Shown here: positions 1 through 44,270 of the stretch, in pieces
How the letters are laid out: the number at the start of each line of letters is the position of its first letter
How positions within the stretch are numbered: position 1 is the first letter of the stretch
Source: a virus
Direction: 5' to 3' (one strand)
DNA: 44,270 nt
IMG/VR virus record: IMGVR_UViG_3300034072_000212
Span: 1 to 44,270 of that record
Position numbers and translations under genes: made by a program
The notes under the pieces: generated by a model
What the model was told of the DNA's origin: nothing
What the model saw: only the letters and a program-made list of their open reading frames with translations
Database searches by the model: none

Positions 1-127
1 ATTATCTTCTACAATCACATCACGTGAATACGCATCTACAAAAATGCCCTGCAAAAATCCACTAACATTACTGTTCCTAATTATCCCACCGTTCATACTA
101 TTGAAGCGGATACCGTCGTTTACATTT
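1..127. repeat. 127-bp terminal overlap, left copy
   Basis: These 127 bases are identical to the last 127 bases of the window (44144-44270). A reading frame passes through the join without a break, giving one tailspike protein. The length equals a common largest assembler k-mer, so this is most simply the overlap of a circular assembly and not a biological terminal repeat. The unique genome is then 44,143 bp. Confidence 0.93.
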
Positions 128-5211: not shown

Positions 5212-5259
5212 TTACAGCATAACTAGTTAGTTGTGCTGTAATAGATGCAATGGTGCATC
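5212..5259 (+). promoter_or_regulatory. Two consecutive leader stem-loops
   Basis: TTACAGCA (5212-5219) pairs with TGCTGTAA (5234-5241). A second hairpin, GATGCA (5244-5249) with TGCATC (5254-5259) around ATGG, follows at once. The string ACATAGAAGGGAA comes directly after, forming the ribosome site of the gene at 5280. These occupy most of the gap between the first two genes. Confidence 0.65.
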
Positions 5260-5279
5260 ACATAGAAGGGAATACAGTT

Positions 5280-6074
5280 ATGACTATCACTAACACCAAT
5301 CAGGCAATGGAATATGCCAAGACGGCAGGCAATGCGTTTGTGTCGGCAGAAAAGAATGATGCAAAGGGAGAAGCTTATGCAATCGCTGCACTAGTCGCGT
5401 CTTGGGATAGCTTTGAGTTGTCCTATACGGTTGAACGCAAGAAAGATGAATATGACGCGCCGGTGACTATTCTTGTGTCGCAAGTTATGGACAAGACTTT
5501 CAACCGTGACGGCACCGAGGATAAGAAAGCAACTGGTGCGCGCAAGCTGGCACTGGCTAAGCAATTGTTCGGCATTGAAGAGCCTAGCAACGCTCACTTG
5601 TCCAAGATCAATCGCGCATTGATGGCCGCTCGCTATCTTGTTCACCACAAGGCGGATGTAACTATCAAGGCAGGCAAGTTGACTATTCCTTACGGTTTGG
5701 TCGAAGCTGCACCTAAGGACAACGCTAGCAGCAAGGCAAAGCTTCAGTATGAAATGATGAAAGACAAGCCGGTTAGCCTTGATGGCAAAGAAGGTATGTC
5801 CCTCTCGGCATTGCGTGCCCGTGCTACTGCCCAATTCCCTGTTAACAAGCGTGCATCGCGCACCAATACTAAGGACACTGGCACAACGCTTGTCGCGTCT
5901 ATCAAGCTGGTCCGCGCCACGCTTGAAAGCCAGCTTGCCGATAACGGTGAAAGCAATGTTGCACTGACTGACAGTCTGCGCCGCGAATTGTATATGCTTA
6001 CGCAATCCGCTGCCGCATACTTTGCTGCCGATCCTATTGGTGACATTGAGGACAACGCAGCAGTTAACTTCTAA
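5280..6074 (+). CDS. Unknown 264-aa protein, G+C-rich gene
   Basis: I start at the ATG at 5280 (MTITNTNQAMEYAKTA), 8-9 bases after AGAAGGGAA. The 264-residue product is Ala-, Lys- and Asp-rich and soluble, with no membrane segment and no catalytic motif I know. The centre (residues about 85-125, KLALAKQLFGIEEPSNAHLSK) is helical and could include a helix-turn-helix. The gene is visibly richer in G+C and in C/G-ending codons than its neighbours, and stem-loops lie on both sides. It is probably well expressed. It could be a DNA-associated or host-takeover protein, but I do not recognise it. Confidence 0.8.
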   Translation: MTITNTNQAMEYAKTAGNAFVSAEKNDAKGEAYAIAALVASWDSFELSYTVERKKDEYDAPVTILVSQVMDKTFNRDGTEDKKATGARKLALAKQLFGIEEPSNAHLSKINRALMAARYLVHHKADVTIKAGKLTIPYGLVEAAPKDNASSKAKLQYEMMKDKPVSLDGKEGMSLSALRARATAQFPVNKRASRTNTKDTGTTLVASIKLVRATLESQLADNGESNVALTDSLRRELYMLTQSAAAYFAADPIGDIEDNAAVNF

Positions 6075-17280: not shown

Positions 17281-17470
17281 TGTTCTAGCTGCTGCACTTC
17301 TCAACAACGAACAGGGTGTTGTAGAGTGGGCAGAGCGGGCAATCGCTGATGCTAACACTCTTAACCGTGTCCGTGATCGTGACATTAATACACTTAACCG
17401 ACTGGAAGGGATATTTAGTCGTGACTTCTACAAACGCAACTGTAACGGAGCAAATCCCGTTTACGCTTGA
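17240..17470 (+). CDS. Small helical protein overlapping the helicase start (76 aa)
   Basis: Begins MSKLNDRMIERIGDVLAAAL; AATGAAAGATG is a weak ribosome region. Two helices with an acidic middle. The frame overlaps the regulator gene by 41 bases and the helicase start at 17421 by 50 bases. Unidentified. Confidence 0.6.
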   Translation: MSKLNDRMIERIGDVLAAALLNNEQGVVEWAERAIADANTLNRVRDRDINTLNRLEGIFSRDFYKRNCNGANPVYA

Positions 17471-18728
17471 TCCTAAGCAGGAAGAAGCAGTACACCTTGG
17501 ACTTGACGTAACCAAGCGTGTTGTTGGCATCACTGGTGCAGCAGGCTCTGGTAAGACTACCATCCTGCGCATCATATATCGCCAACTAGAAGCAGCAGGC
17601 TATAGTGTTGTACTGTGTGCACCTACTGGCAAAGCTGCAAAGCGTATCTATGAAGCGACAGGCATTGAAGCTATTACAATCCACCGACTGCTAGAGTATT
17701 CGCATCCCGGTGAACCTGATCCTAAGACGGGTAAGCCTTGTCGCTTCACTTTTCCCAAAAGAACATCTAGTAATCGACTTGAACAAGACGTTGTACTCTG
17801 TGACGAGTATGCGATGGTGTCTGATGAAGTTCACAGGTCACTGTTCAATGCTCTCAAAGCAGGTGGTGCTATTCGTGTGTTTGGTGACAACAATCAGTTG
17901 AAGCCGATCGAACAAGATGAACATCTGAATAAGCAACCTAGCAACTTCTTTCGCATCTTGGACCAGTTCCCGTCTGTTCGTCTTGATACAGTACATCGTC
18001 AAGGTAAAGATAGTGGTATCTTGCTCAACTTGCAGCAGATACTCAAGCGCCGTATGCCTGCTAAGAACGATCAGTGGCAGATGACTATTACTGATCAGCC
18101 TGTTCGTGCACTTACTGACTATATCATGGACTGTCTGGATCAGGGTATCGACTTTACACAGGTTGAGAACCAGATCATCACTACACAGCGTAATACTTGG
18201 ATTGGCACTATGCAACTTAATCAAGTTGTGCAGGGCCTGTTCCACAGTAAGCTTGATCCTGCTTATCACATCCCGCGTCACAAGTGGGTTGAAGGTGATA
18301 ACAAGGAGAAGGGTGGTACTATCCGCATGTATGTTGGTGATAAGGTCATCATGACCAGCAACAACTACAACCTGATGGTGTTCAATGGCGAGACTGGTGT
18401 TATCAAGGAGATCGATCCTGGTACACAAGAGATCATTGTTGACTTTGGTGACAGAGAACAAGCATTTCCACCTGTTATGGAAGTACTCAACCAGTATGGT
18501 AAGATTGTTCAGGTTGACCCACGTAAAGACCTTGACCTTGCATATGCTATCTCGACACACAAGAGTCAGGGCAGTGAGTATCGTCGGGTCGTGTACATAA
18601 TGAACAAGTCAACCAGCTACATGCAGAACATCCGTAACTTCTACACCGCTTGTAGTCGTGCACGTGAGCATGTTAACTTGATTAGTGACCAGCGTAGTAT
18701 TGTTAACTCTCTTAACAAGGCAGGATGA
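17421..18728 (+). CDS. SF1B DNA helicase, RecD/Dda-like
   Basis: I start at the GTG at 17421 (MTSTNATVTEQIPFTLDPKQ), about 10 bases after GGAAGGGA; the in-frame ATG at 17349 lies inside other genes. 435 residues. Q-motif Gln20, Walker A GAAGSGKT (39-46), motif Ia APTGKAAKRI, motif II LCDEYAMVS, motif III GDNNQLKPI, and the C-terminal ISTHKSQGSEY and TACSRAREHV (UvrD_C_2-like; motifs V and VI). These are the hallmarks of 5'-3' SF1B helicases such as RecD2 and T4 Dda. Likely role: remodelling forks or loading recombination. It is followed by nucleotide and polymerase genes. Confidence 0.88.
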   Translation: MTSTNATVTEQIPFTLDPKQEEAVHLGLDVTKRVVGITGAAGSGKTTILRIIYRQLEAAGYSVVLCAPTGKAAKRIYEATGIEAITIHRLLEYSHPGEPDPKTGKPCRFTFPKRTSSNRLEQDVVLCDEYAMVSDEVHRSLFNALKAGGAIRVFGDNNQLKPIEQDEHLNKQPSNFFRILDQFPSVRLDTVHRQGKDSGILLNLQQILKRRMPAKNDQWQMTITDQPVRALTDYIMDCLDQGIDFTQVENQIITTQRNTWIGTMQLNQVVQGLFHSKLDPAYHIPRHKWVEGDNKEKGGTIRMYVGDKVIMTSNNYNLMVFNGETGVIKEIDPGTQEIIVDFGDREQAFPPVMEVLNQYGKIVQVDPRKDLDLAYAISTHKSQGSEYRRVVYIMNKSTSYMQNIRNFYTACSRAREHVNLISDQRSIVNSLNKAG

Positions 18729-18740
18729 AGGGATAATATC

Positions 18741-18902
18741 ATGAATAACAACGATGCAGTACTCATTCCACAGCACTTAGCATTCGGTATTAGCACTAAT
18801 AATGTCACAGGTATGAAAGCAATGGAGTTGTGCCTTGATGACTCACTTCGCATTATCTTTTGTAAGGAAGAAACTGATCTGTCTGTGAGTACCATTCAAT
18901 GA
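18741..18902 (+). CDS. Small protein, 53 aa
   Basis: ATG at 18741 after GATGAAGGGATAATATC opens a 53-residue frame (MNNNDAVLIPQHLAFGISTN) that ends overlapping the next ATG (ATGA at 18899-18902). The good ribosome site and exact coupling support it. No domain recognised. Confidence 0.65.
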   Translation: MNNNDAVLIPQHLAFGISTNNVTGMKAMELCLDDSLRIIFCKEETDLSVSTIQ

Positions 18903-19516
18903 AAGTAATCTTGTTCAATGGTCCACCGGGTGTAGGTAAGGACACTGCTGCACGTGTAGTACAGAAGCCAATCCGTGACTACTACAAACGTTGGAATGCA
19001 GTTGAACATTTTAAGATGGCTGAACCTCTCAAGAAAGGGGTTCATGCCATCTTTAATTTGTTCTACAGTCCAGAGCATTACGATGCATACCCTGACGAGA
19101 AGAACGCTAAACACGAGTTGTTGTTTGGTATGTCACCACGTGAGGCATATATCTGGATGCACAAGGTACTAGCCAAGAAGTTTGGTGATGACATTGTAGC
19201 TAGATTGATGCTTAACAAGTTGCACAACACTCGTGATGTGAAATGTGTCTTGCTGTCTGATGGCGGTATACTAGAAGAACAGCGTGTCATTGTTAACTAC
19301 GTCAAACCACACAACTACAAGATCATTGAGATACGATCGCCAGATCATACCTTTGAGGGTGACAGTCGTAAGTACTTGGGTGAAGCACTCAAAAAAGAGT
19401 TTCCTAACATACATTATGAAAAGGTGTGGAACTTGCATGGTGGTACTGACGAGTTACGACTGTTCAACGAAATGGTAACTGCATCTGTAATGAAGTTCAT
19501 AGAGGATAGAGATTGA
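18899..19516 (+). CDS. Deoxynucleoside monophosphate kinase-like P-loop protein
   Basis: 205 residues. The N-terminal P-loop GPPGVGKDT (8-16) and the following helix, then MAEPLKKGVHAIFNLF and the RVIVNYVK and RSPDH segments, match the dNMP kinase family of T4 gene 1 type. These phosphorylate dTMP, dGMP and modified nucleotides. In this order, kinase then polymerase, it would feed dNTP synthesis. The substrate preference cannot be read from the sequence. Its stop overlaps the polymerase start (TGATG). Confidence 0.78.
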   Translation: MKVILFNGPPGVGKDTAARVVQKPIRDYYKRWNAVEHFKMAEPLKKGVHAIFNLFYSPEHYDAYPDEKNAKHELLFGMSPREAYIWMHKVLAKKFGDDIVARLMLNKLHNTRDVKCVLLSDGGILEEQRVIVNYVKPHNYKIIEIRSPDHTFEGDSRKYLGEALKKEFPNIHYEKVWNLHGGTDELRLFNEMVTASVMKFIEDRD

Positions 19517-21987
19517 TGTTTACTATCGGACAGATGAACCAAGAGATAATGAAAAGGATACAACAGTATGGCCTTACAATTGATTGCGGAGTCGACGGTT
19601 CCACAGATGCTACCATTGCTATCATTGCTGAAGCACCCGGTGACCGTGAACGAGTACTCAAGATGCCTCTTGTGGGTGGATCAGGAAAAGTTCTCTGGGA
19701 CACTGTCCGAAAGTATGGCATCAATCGACGTAACACTTACATTACAAATGTCGTCAAGAAACAACTGCTTGGAAGTGGTGATACAAAGGAAAGAGTAGAT
19801 GACGGAGACTTTGCAAACTACAGTGCAATCTTGCAGTGGGAACTCTCGCAACTCCCCAATCTCAAGTACATCCTCTGTCTTGGGAACTTCGCGCTACAAG
19901 CGATTACGGGCTACAAAGGGATCAATACCTATCGAGGAAGTGTCTTTCCTGTACAACTCCGTCAAGCCTACAACGACAAGGAAGTCGTAACACGTGATGT
20001 ACAAGTACTAGCTACGTACAATCCTGCTGCTGTACTGCGTAATCCTAGTAATGAACTCATGTTCAAGTTTGACATGGGCAGACTGAACGAGTTGGCAACT
20101 GGTAAGTTTGAGCAGCGTGACGTTGAAGCTATTATCAATCCTACATTTGATGAAGCAATGGCTTACATCGAGAAGATGCGGCTGTCACCTGATCCTGTAG
20201 GACTTGACATTGAGACTTCATCAGGTGAGACGATCTGTATAGGATTGTCTGACAATATTTACAATGCTATGTGCATTAACTTTCGTGATGCCAACAGTAA
20301 CAGGTTCACTGTCAAACAGGAAATGCAGATATGGGTAGTAATACAACGCTTAGTCAAAGACCCCAATGTGCGTTTAGTGATGCAGAACGGTATGTACGAC
20401 GCAAGTTGGCTGTGGTTCAAGGATCGTGTCAAGATCGAGAGTTTCTGGTTCGACACTATGCTTGCACATCACACCTTGTATCCCACACTACCACACAATC
20501 TGGGTTTCCTTGTAAGTCAGTACACTAATCACCCATTCTACAAAGATGAAGGCAAGATTTGGAAAGAGACAGGTGATATTGATGCAGAATGGCGATACAA
20601 CGCTAAAGATGTGTGTCTCATGCTCGAAGCACAGCAGAAGATGCTCAAAGAACTACAAGCACAACAGATGGACGAGTTCTTCTTCTCTCATGTTATGACT
20701 GTACAACCACATCTAGTTGACATGACTGTGCATGGTGTTAAGATCGACACTGATCTAAAAGAGAAGATCGTTGTTGACATGCGTGCTAAGATCAAGGTGA
20801 TGAAGGAACAGTATTATGATATGGTTGCAGCCAGTACTGGTGATCCTGATTATCGTCCTAACCCTAACAGCCCGAAGCAAATGGCTGAACTGTTCTTCAA
20901 ACGACTTAAGTTGGTTGGACGTGGGCAAGCGACGGATAAAGAGAACCGTCGTAGAATGCGTGATCATCCTCGTACTCCTGATGATTGTGTGCAACTCCTT
21001 AATCATATTGATGAACTAGCAGAAGAACAGAAGTTCGTATCAACATATGCAGAAATGAGTATAGACGATGATGGACGAGTTCGTTGTGAGTATAAACAAA
21101 TGGGTGTTGTCAAGGCACCCGGTCGCTTATCTAGTGCGTCAACAGGATGGGGGACAGGCAGTAACTTACAAAATCAACCAGCACGCTCTCATGAAATGTT
21201 TGTTGCTGACGAAGGTTATGAGTTCTCCTATTTCGATCTGTCGCAAGCTGAGGCTAGAGTGGTGGGTTGGCTTGCTCCAATACCAACTTGGATCACTGAC
21301 TTCGAACGGGCAAGATTGGAAGGTGGATTTGATTGTCATAGATCACTTGCAGCGCAGATGTTTAACATGGCATATGACGATACGCCAACGGAAGATATTG
21401 GGCCTGACGGTAAGCACACCAAGCGTTACATTGCAAAGCGTTGCCGTCACGGACTCAACTACAGAATGATGCCAGATCGACTTGCTACTACACTACACGT
21501 ACCATATGCAGAAGCAGAGTACTTGTGGCATCTATATCACAAGATCAATCCAGAGTTGCAAGAGTGGTGGGCTAAGACTGTAGAAGAAGTCAAACACAAA
21601 CGTAGTCTGTTCACACCATACGGCAGACGATGGATACTATTGGAGCAGTTTAGTGATGAAGCAACAGAAAGTATCATTGCGTTCAGACCGCAGAGTACGA
21701 TTGGAGACAAGGTTACTAGAATTATTCGTCTATGTCACAGTGATCCTGATTGGCCTCGCGGCTTGGCACGTATTGCCCTCAATATACACGACGCACTCAT
21801 TGCCCTTAATCATATTAGTGTTGGGCCTGTGGTTAGGGCTATAATGAAGAAACACGCAGAAGAACCTATTATTATCAAAGGCTATGATGGAGTTGAACGT
21901 GAACTGATTATACCAGCAGACTTGAAAGTTAGTGTACCTGATGAGCATGGTGTTCACAGGTGGAGTAATATGCAGAAGGTGAAGTGA
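19516..21987 (+). CDS. Family A DNA polymerase with N-terminal UDG-like domain
   Basis: I start at the ATG at 19516 (MFTIGQMNQEIMKRIQQYGL); 823 residues. Residues 1-195 resemble a uracil-DNA glycosylase of the family 4/5 type: IIAEAPGDRE (37-45), PLVGGSGKVLWDTV (51-64), YITNVVKK (75-82), LCLGNFALQ (120-128), ATYNPAAVLRNPS (166-178), where Asn169 replaces the usual His; only Cys24 is left of possible Fe-S cysteines in the N-terminal part. The 3'-5' exonuclease follows: Asp231/Glu233, Asn291-x3-Tyr-Asp296, Tyr361-x3-Asp365. Pol motif A is DLSQAE (574-579), motif B R637-x3-K641-x7-Y649 and motif C HDA (758-760), where E is replaced by Ala. It is the replicative polymerase. Confidence 0.88.
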   Translation: MFTIGQMNQEIMKRIQQYGLTIDCGVDGSTDATIAIIAEAPGDRERVLKMPLVGGSGKVLWDTVRKYGINRRNTYITNVVKKQLLGSGDTKERVDDGDFANYSAILQWELSQLPNLKYILCLGNFALQAITGYKGINTYRGSVFPVQLRQAYNDKEVVTRDVQVLATYNPAAVLRNPSNELMFKFDMGRLNELATGKFEQRDVEAIINPTFDEAMAYIEKMRLSPDPVGLDIETSSGETICIGLSDNIYNAMCINFRDANSNRFTVKQEMQIWVVIQRLVKDPNVRLVMQNGMYDASWLWFKDRVKIESFWFDTMLAHHTLYPTLPHNLGFLVSQYTNHPFYKDEGKIWKETGDIDAEWRYNAKDVCLMLEAQQKMLKELQAQQMDEFFFSHVMTVQPHLVDMTVHGVKIDTDLKEKIVVDMRAKIKVMKEQYYDMVAASTGDPDYRPNPNSPKQMAELFFKRLKLVGRGQATDKENRRRMRDHPRTPDDCVQLLNHIDELAEEQKFVSTYAEMSIDDDGRVRCEYKQMGVVKAPGRLSSASTGWGTGSNLQNQPARSHEMFVADEGYEFSYFDLSQAEARVVGWLAPIPTWITDFERARLEGGFDCHRSLAAQMFNMAYDDTPTEDIGPDGKHTKRYIAKRCRHGLNYRMMPDRLATTLHVPYAEAEYLWHLYHKINPELQEWWAKTVEEVKHKRSLFTPYGRRWILLEQFSDEATESIIAFRPQSTIGDKVTRIIRLCHSDPDWPRGLARIALNIHDALIALNHISVGPVVRAIMKKHAEEPIIIKGYDGVERELIIPADLKVSVPDEHGVHRWSNMQKVK

Positions 21988-22709: not shown

Positions 22710-23957
22710 ATGCCAAAGCGAGTTAACTATGCCAAAATTGTTGGACCCGATACCTTCCTCGGACAGTATCTTCTATACAACGACAGTTCAGAGACGCCTC
22801 TTGTCTATGACTTCTTTACAGGACTGTTTATCCTTAGTAACGTTGTTGGTCGTACTACTGTTGTTGAGCGTGGCTCCGCTTCGGTATTTCTTAACATGTA
22901 TTGTATCCTTGTTGCGGAGAGTGGTATCACAAGGAAGTCAACATCAGTAAGACGTGCTACCAAGATACTACACAAGATGGGTGTGTTCACTATTGAAAAC
23001 AAGACTACACCTGAAAAGCTTGAGTACATGCTTGTAGCAGAGTCAAGAGAGAAAGGACATTGCAGTGCGGCTATTTGCATCGATGAACTCGTTAAGTTCT
23101 TGGGTAAAGAAAAGTATATGGATACTATGCCTGGTCTGCTCACTGATTTGTATGATTGTCCTGACATTCGTTCTGGTGGTGGATCATTTGTACGTGGTGA
23201 TATGCGCTTGGATAATGTATATCTCAACTTTCTTAGTGCTAGTACTCCTTCTTGGCTCATCAGAGCGGTCAATCCTGATGTAATTGAAGGTGGTTTTACA
23301 TCACGTGTTCTGTTTGTAGTCAGTGAGAAGCGTAAAAAGTGTAACCCATGGCCGGAGAAGCCTGATGAAGAACTACATACCAGCATCATCAATCATCTTG
23401 AACGCATTAAACGGGAAGCGTCCGACATTCCCAAGGTGGCAATTAGCAAAGGTGGAAGAAGTAAGTTTGAAGCTTGGTATAGACGTAGAGAAGTCAAACG
23501 AGACCCCTTCCGTAAGTCTTTCCAGTCGCGGGAAGATGGTCACATCCTCAGAGTTGCTGCGTTGCTCTGCATCAACGATCAAACCTGGGAAATACAAGCT
23601 ACACATATATCCGCTGCGATCCGCATCATCGAAGAAGTAAGAGAAGATGGAGCACTGATCTTTGAAGGCACAGGTACTCACGGTCGTACAATCAGTGGGA
23701 TTGACAACTTGCGTGACATGCTACTAGCTGCTGGAATGAATGGTGTTACACAGGCACAACTTACTAAGCGTGTGCAAGCATGGATCAATGCATCTACAGT
23801 ACGTGCTGCTCTAGATGTGATGCATGAAATGGATATGGTACAGAAGTTTACTGGAATACAACTAGGTAGGGGTAGACCTAGTACACTGTACAGAGCCACC
23901 CGCTACCTAATTGATAGTAAGAGTCTAGAGAAAGTTATGGAAAGGTTAGAACCATGA
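22710..23957 (+). CDS. DUF3987-like P-loop protein, possible helicase/primase-helicase
   Basis: 415 residues. ILVAESGITRKSTSVRRA at about 66-83 is a Walker-A-like loop in which the usual GxGKS reads GITRKST, and AAICIDEL (120-127) is the Walker B. The C-terminal 90 residues (MNGVTQAQLTKRVQAWI and later GRGRPSTLYRATRYL) look like a winged helix. This order matches DUF3987-type proteins that replace replicative helicases in some phages. The altered P-loop leaves open whether it hydrolyses ATP. The ribosome site is AGGAA. Confidence 0.68.
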   Translation: MPKRVNYAKIVGPDTFLGQYLLYNDSSETPLVYDFFTGLFILSNVVGRTTVVERGSASVFLNMYCILVAESGITRKSTSVRRATKILHKMGVFTIENKTTPEKLEYMLVAESREKGHCSAAICIDELVKFLGKEKYMDTMPGLLTDLYDCPDIRSGGGSFVRGDMRLDNVYLNFLSASTPSWLIRAVNPDVIEGGFTSRVLFVVSEKRKKCNPWPEKPDEELHTSIINHLERIKREASDIPKVAISKGGRSKFEAWYRRREVKRDPFRKSFQSREDGHILRVAALLCINDQTWEIQATHISAAIRIIEEVREDGALIFEGTGTHGRTISGIDNLRDMLLAAGMNGVTQAQLTKRVQAWINASTVRAALDVMHEMDMVQKFTGIQLGRGRPSTLYRATRYLIDSKSLEKVMERLEP

Positions 23958-43522: not shown

Positions 43523-44270
43523 TTAAGATGATACAGGTCTTATTGTTTTGAATACTGCTGTACTGTTTCCCACTCCAGATGTAGTACATACACAAGCTTC
43601 AAAACCGCCAGCAAGAGGCTCATTATATTCTATAATTTCACCTTTTACCCAGTTGCCACCACTTGGGTTAACATCGCCAGAGAGTCCAGCTCTATTAGCT
43701 TTATACACTCCTCTAGTAATTCCATCAGTGCCTACTACATAATCATAAGGCACTACGGTTACACCGGCATAATTTGTCGGTACATAACTTGGATCAGTAA
43801 CACCAATTCTCCATTTGCGGAGTTTGTTGAACTCAGAACCAGAAAACAATACTTCACCAATACCAGTAGTTTCAGTGGCACTGTGGTGATAATTGTCCCA
43901 ACCTTCTAGTCCAGACACACCGCCTTCTGCCCAAATGCCGTATCTTTGGGTCGGATCATACATACCTTTAATTCCAGTAATATTTTCATACACCTTACAA
44001 TTGGTGCTAGTATTGATATAAATACCTGCACTTGTGGTATCTGTGCCATTACCAAATGTCTTGTTTCGACGAACAGTAATATTGTCAGGAGGATTAGGCC
44101 CATCATATACTGCAATGCCATGACTTCGATTGTAACTTGATGTATTATCTTCTACAATCACATCACGTGAATACGCATCTACAAAAATGCCCTGCAAAAA
44201 TCCACTAACATTACTGTTCCTAATTATCCCACCGTTCATACTATTGAAGCGGATACCGTCGTTTACATTT
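43523..44270 (-). CDS. Tailspike / beta-helix receptor-binding protein, C-terminal part
   Basis: The remaining 206 codons of the tailspike gene (plus 127 overlap bases), continuing the frame from position 1 without a stop. Beta-helix rungs (GIFVDAYSRDVIVEDNTSSY; NITVRRNKTFGNGTDTTSAG; INTSTNCKVYENITGIKG) end at about residue 540 of the whole protein, then a C-terminal region with VTVVPYDYVVGTDGITRGVYKANRAG follows, probably the trimerisation or fibre end. TAA at 43523-43525 precedes the terminase ribosome site. Confidence 0.85.
   Translation of the reverse strand, partial: NVNDGIRFNSMNGGIIRNSNVSGFLQGIFVDAYSRDVIVEDNTSSYNRSHGIAVYDGPNPPDNITVRRNKTFGNGTDTTSAGIYINTSTNCKVYENITGIKGMYDPTQRYGIWAEGGVSGLEGWDNYHHSATETTGIGEVLFSGSEFNKLRKWRIGVTDPSYVPTNYAGVTVVPYDYVVGTDGITRGVYKANRAGLSGDVNPSGGNWVKGEIIEYNEPLAGGFEACVCTTSGVGNSTAVFKTIRPVSS
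44144..44270. repeat. 127-bp terminal overlap, right copy
   Basis: Identical to positions 1-127. It shows that the window is one full circle plus an overlap and should be trimmed for annotation. The length suggests the k-mer of the assembly, not a packaging repeat. Confidence 0.93.

Follow-up and report, generated by a model that had tools for sequence, protein, structure and literature searches.

The replicative DNA polymerase encoded in the window, the whole 44,270-nucleotide stretch of viral DNA analysed here, begins with a uracil-DNA glycosylase (UDG) domain of family 4 type. Across the clade of phage polymerases to which it belongs, this domain has shed the catalytic residues and retained the residues that recognize uracil. 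The domain is very probably a catalytically disabled UDG. We suggest that it serves as a non-cleaving uracil reader that anchors or stalls the polymerase, which is the best explanation overall and one that we hold with slightly less than even confidence. The fusion of a UDG, an exonuclease and a family A polymerase is already known and widespread among phage family A polymerases. The new part is the selective loss of cutting residues within this known fusion.

The first and last 127 bp of the window (1-127 and 44144-44270) form an identical direct repeat, which points to a probably complete, circularly closed phage genome of about 44.1 kb. The polymerase sits in a replication block together with a helicase, a deoxynucleoside monophosphate (dNMP) kinase, a primase/helicase, Sak4-like annealing and SSB-like proteins, as well as a PD-(D/E)XK nuclease-like protein recognized by a weak match. 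The genes and domains discussed below are:

17349..18728, + strand, RecD/Dda-like helicase, upstream replication gene (profile matches)
18899..19516, + strand, dNMP kinase (phrog_139), overlapping the polymerase start
19516..21987, + strand, UDG, 3'-5' exonuclease and family A DNA polymerase, 823 aa (ORF, Pfam, AlphaFold2, Foldseek)
19573..20106, + strand, family-4-type UDG domain, residues 20-197 (Pfam stretch 28-179 = 19597-20052)
20152..20658, + strand, 3'-5' exonuclease domain, residues 213-381 (Pfam)
20776..21810, + strand, family A polymerase domain, residues 421-765 (Pfam, Foldseek)
21787..21795, + strand, polymerase motif C, HDA (758-760), ordinary for the group
22710..23957, + strand, DUF3987 primase/helicase-like protein, downstream replication gene (profile matches)

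Elsewhere in the window, positions 5250-6074 encode a protein of 274 aa that matches no PHROG and resembles histidine phosphatases only below threshold.

The polymerase reading frame is intact from the ATG at 19516, which overlaps the stop codon of the dNMP kinase gene, to the stop at 21987. Pfam recognizes UDG (PF03167, with an E of 1.2e-16 for the whole protein and of 7.8e-18 when residues 1-203 alone are the query), DNA_pol_A_exo1 (E 2.2e-13) and DNA_pol_A (E 7.2e-28), and all three matches exceed the curated cut-offs. The full-length AlphaFold2 model (pLDDT 90, pTM 0.84) matches Bst/Klenow polymerases in a Foldseek search of the PDB. Pfam, AlphaFold2 and Foldseek thus agree on the layout proposed in the earlier note, a UDG in residues 1-195 followed by an exonuclease and a family A polymerase, in the domain order of the SPO1 and PaBG polymerases (PHROG 17). 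A profile search had been named beforehand as the test of this layout, and it assigned the N-terminal residues to PF03167 and to no different fold.

The UDG domain belongs to the UDG superfamily and its fold is nearest to family 4. The model of residues 1-203 (pLDDT 94) has family 4 UDGs as its best PDB matches (1l9g, E 6.7e-14; 4zby, TM 0.76-0.79). The NCBIfam model UDG_fam4 matches the same residues with an E of 1.1e-21, under the curated cut-off of that model, as is expected of a divergent family member. The assignment goes far past chance. Of the initial call of family 4/5, the family 4 part is borne out by UDG_fam4 and Foldseek, and the family 5 part was dropped. Motif 1 of family 4, GE(A/G)PG, appears as AEAPGDRE with both of its glutamates. 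The window domain shares the fold and the motifs GEAPG-E-TNVV with the family 4 UDGs of Thermus (UDGa, 1ui0), Sulfolobus (4zby) and Thermotoga (1l9g) and retains the equivalents of Glu41, Glu47 and Asn80. It differs from them in having Asn in place of His155, no Asn89 motif, no Fe-S cysteines and a fused polymerase. The absence of the four Fe-S cysteines had been noticed before and holds, as residue 24 is the only position where cysteine exceeds 60% in the clade. Many fusions of the sister lineage also lack the cysteine of the family 4 KCRPP motif with the full catalytic signature retained, so that loss of the Fe-S cysteines alone tells little of activity.

Relatives were collected by a profile scan with two exonuclease-domain patterns, and the UDG pocket was therefore not selected for. 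The scan yielded 37 viral loci, of which 36 form the window clade and one (L059) serves as outgroup. Once near-duplicates were dropped, the clade comprised 27 non-redundant polymerases. Residues were numbered by Thermus UDGa (Tth), with equivalences taken from PMC5387724. The key positions in the window are:

19630..19650, + strand, motif 1 EAPGDRE, residues 39-45 (Glu39 = Tth Glu41, Glu45 = Tth Glu47)
19747..19749, + strand, Asn78 (= Tth Asn80)
20020..20022, + strand, Asn169 in NPA, at the position of the catalytic His155 of Tth UDGa
20038..20040, + strand, Arg175 (= UdgX Arg184, DNA-backbone contact)

In Thermus UDGa, His155 acts in catalysis through leaving-group stabilization, whereas Glu41, Glu47 and Asn80 hold and select uracil (PMC5387724). 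Asn80 makes a bidentate contact to uracil N3/O4, Glu47 excludes thymine, and Asn89 in the PPxN motif is a second catalytic feature that positions water (PMC5387724). The recognition residues are kept clade-wide: the Glu41 equivalent in 24/27 members, the Glu47 equivalent in 25/27 (Asp in the other two) and the Asn80 equivalent, the family 4 contact to uracil, in 23/27. The catalytic residues are gone. No member has His at residue 169 (Asn in 24, Asp, Ser and Ala in one each), which confirms the earlier observation of Asn where His is usual, and the PPxN motif is found in 0/27. Glu39, Glu45, Asn78 and Asn169 occur together in 21/27 members. Leu or Met replaces the stacking Phe54 in 16/27, which counts against uracil reading; in Thermus UDGa, F54A costs about 17-fold.

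The effect of such a loss can be gauged from the Thermus H155S mutant, in which Km is about unchanged (0.76 vs 0.97 uM) and k2 is lowered about 3000-fold (7.2e-5 vs 0.23 per s; PMC5387724). By the same token, the pocket of the window clade is predicted to bind uracil in DNA without cutting it. The earlier suggestion that the UDG part may bind without cleaving is supported at the level of sequence by the loss of the His155 equivalent and Asn89 alongside the retained recognition residues. Asn at residue 169 by itself is no proof of inactivity, since UDG families 2 and 6 also lack the motif-2 His (PMC5387724). The domain could accordingly be an active glycosylase of altered mechanism or substrate, with Asn169 in place of the family 4 His, and conservation of motif 1, Asn78 and Asn169 is what a working active site would show. 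We consider this unlikely. The substitute used by families 1 and 2, Asp or Asn at the third motif-1 position, is absent here, where the most frequent residues are Ala, Gly, Tyr, His or Ser, and Asn89 is likewise missing. The polymerase would also be expected to harm itself by making abasic sites in the single strand that it copies. One UDG match was found in each of the 15 clade genomes searched, with no second, active UDG among them. UdgX shares with the window domain the family-4-like fold, the pocket residues and the motif-B Arg184, which contacts the DNA backbone (PMC10359453). UdgX has a KRRIH loop and crosslinks through His109, both lacking in the window, and UdgX-type crosslinking was ruled out by the absence of the KRRIH loop from the window sequence.

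The UDG domain is under purifying selection. Among the closest pairs, its dN/dS lies mostly at 0.03-0.12, close to the values of the exonuclease and polymerase domains; more distant pairs are saturated. Overall it is less conserved than the other two domains, a point against uracil reading: mean pairwise identity in the clade is 41.5% for the UDG domain vs 52% for the exonuclease and 50% for the polymerase. Positions 39, 45, 78 and 169 are conserved above random sets of UDG columns (p 0.012), as are eight motif positions including these four (p 7e-5). Asn169 is present in 21/21 clade members with an intact recognition triad and missing in 3/6 with a broken triad (Fisher p 0.007, a value that takes leaves as independent and overstates the evidence). 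A domain that is vestigial and persists for no reason other than that the polymerase folds around it is difficult to reconcile with these dN/dS values and with the presence of the domain in every clade member found. Progressive decay does occur elsewhere, with motif 1 lost in Gordonia, KimJongPhill and Triscuit, and one clade member (L003) has lost every key residue but Glu45. On balance, a purely vestigial domain seems improbable.

Members that have lost pocket residues bear on a different alternative. Asn78 and Asn169 are lost and the domain is retained in L003, L030 and L051, with Glu39 gone too in L003, and L027 carries E39D and N78Y. The base-reading pocket is thus dispensable in some members, which argues for a second, pocket-independent role. 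The main rival to uracil reading is that the UDG fold holds the polymerase on DNA, similar to vaccinia D4, with base recognition being incidental. Processivity is a role suggested for such domains in the literature (Kazlauskas and Venclovas 2011, in the passages of PMC5135824 that cite it). Vaccinia UNG serves its polymerase as a processivity factor and binds DNA in a similar way whether or not it is damaged, and the backbone-contacting Arg175 is kept as Arg in 24 and Lys in 3 of the 27 members. Pure anchoring has no need, however, of Glu45 with its exclusion of thymine, nor of Asn78 and Asn169, which most members keep together with Glu39, and the four residues tend to go together when lost. 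We regard anchoring alone as a serious possibility that falls well short of even. That the domain reads uracil as proposed appears to us a little less than an even prospect.

The sister lineage of fusions mostly retains the catalytic set. Among its 17 members, the Glu41 equivalent is present in 16, Glu47 in 12 (Asp in another 5), Asn80 in 12, His in 11 and PPxN in 11. In both the polymerase tree and the UDG tree (FastTree, midpoint-rooted, drawn without support values), the window clade forms one group. The signature EEFNH, with His, turns up again in other branches of the polymerase tree, and His is therefore probably the ancestral state. The sequences are consistent with His having given way to Asn once, at the root of the clade. 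No domain loss was found among the clade members recovered. In two other loci, Kuura (L007) and Vibrio ABTNL-3 (L016), the polymerase is split into separate frames, with the UDG and exonuclease apart from the polymerase, and three sister loci (L074, L079 and L085) have shortened polymerase frames.

The earlier note left open whether such fusions had been described, and they have. The UDG domain was reported on the polymerases of SPO1 and Shbh1 (PMC5135824) and PaBG (PMC7412058), and it occurs in many GenBank phages. The polymerase matches 1090 phage records, mostly via its polymerase part, with 39 matching over at least 80% of the length, and PHROG 17 ('DNA polymerase') covers the UDG region too. 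The polymerases of the Bacillus phages SPO1 and Shbh1 share the order of N-terminal UDG, 3'-5' exonuclease and family A polymerase. SPO1 retains the motif-2 His (HPNTVL) and has lost its equivalent of Asn80, a pattern opposite to that of the window. The DNA polymerase I of the 'Lupandier' jumbo phage PaBG has the same three-domain order, and its UDG domain, modelled on Tth UDG 1ui0, was proposed to be active in repair (PMC7412058); the contrast with the window rests on this published description. The phiLo family A DNA polymerase (PDB 9qhs, 2026) matches the UDG-domain model at a Foldseek E of 1e-6. The match is distant (TM 0.62 by query length) and the phiLo chain is much longer (>1100 aa). 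A literature search found no publication on 9qhs. The vaccinia D4 UDG likewise serves a viral replicative polymerase, but as a separate and catalytically active subunit (PMC10253040).

Under the uracil-reader explanation, the N-terminal 200 residues or so would go back to a family-4-type UDG domain that joined the phage's replicative family A polymerase at an early date and has been inherited with it. The clade domain would then have lost catalysis, with Asn replacing the His155 equivalent and Asn89 gone, and kept the pocket that tells uracil from thymine. It might thus act as a non-cleaving reader of uracil on DNA close to the polymerase, the uracil stemming from cytosine deamination or dUMP incorporation. 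Once bound to uracil, the domain could anchor or stall the polymerase, which would prevent the copying of a C-to-T change or allow host repair to act. The expected lack of cleavage follows the Thermus H155S data, the retained pocket residues suggest uracil binding, and archaeal family B polymerases provide the analogy for stalling or anchoring. These polymerases use a read-ahead pocket to sense uracil in the template and stall. The likeness to the window is one of proposed function only, as the archaeal enzymes have an unrelated fold, belong to a different polymerase family and do not use a UDG as their pocket. From this analogy, we predict that the pocket serves to halt the polymerase at uracil or to anchor it there. 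More tentatively, a silenced UDG in a family A replicase may read template uracil and halt synthesis, having arisen once by a His-to-Asn change and been kept clade-wide, as a convergent counterpart of the archaeal read-ahead pocket. If true, this would be to our knowledge the first replicase of family A to read ahead for uracil, an ability gained through the disarming of a repair enzyme rather than by evolving a new pocket. It would also give a role to the UDG domains of phage polymerases, for which the papers found suggest only processivity or repair. Sister lineages with and without the catalytic His provide a natural contrast, so that purified proteins could address the question directly.

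A link to modified-base (hmU) metabolism was rejected for this clade. Thymidylate synthase/hydroxymethylase (PF00303) and dCMP deaminase (PF00383) were found in none of 15 clade genomes and dUTPase (PF00692) in only one, where most of the clade contigs may be incomplete and the window's record looks complete. The clade hence gives no hint of genomes that contain uracil or hmU. SPO1, by contrast, has a dUMP hydroxymethylase. A dCMP deaminase, thymidylate synthase or pyrimidine hydroxymethylase lies beside the polymerase in six loci of other lineages (L008, L009, L012, L015, L017 and L023), which suggests that the fusion is tied to modified-thymine genomes there.

The polymerase part carries the family A hallmarks, including the motif A and C aspartates (DLSQAE, HDA) and the O-helix residues K641 and Y649. 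Motif C does read HDA, as first noticed, but there is nothing unusual in this: the third letter varies among relatives (HDA, HDS, HDN, HDQ or HDD) and HDE occurs in none of those compared, so HDA was ruled out as a mark of an altered polymerase. His645 (window 21448-21450) occupies the O-helix position of Pol I Phe762 and T7 Tyr526, which governs ddNTP discrimination, and the window clade shares this His with the sister lineage and with L006.
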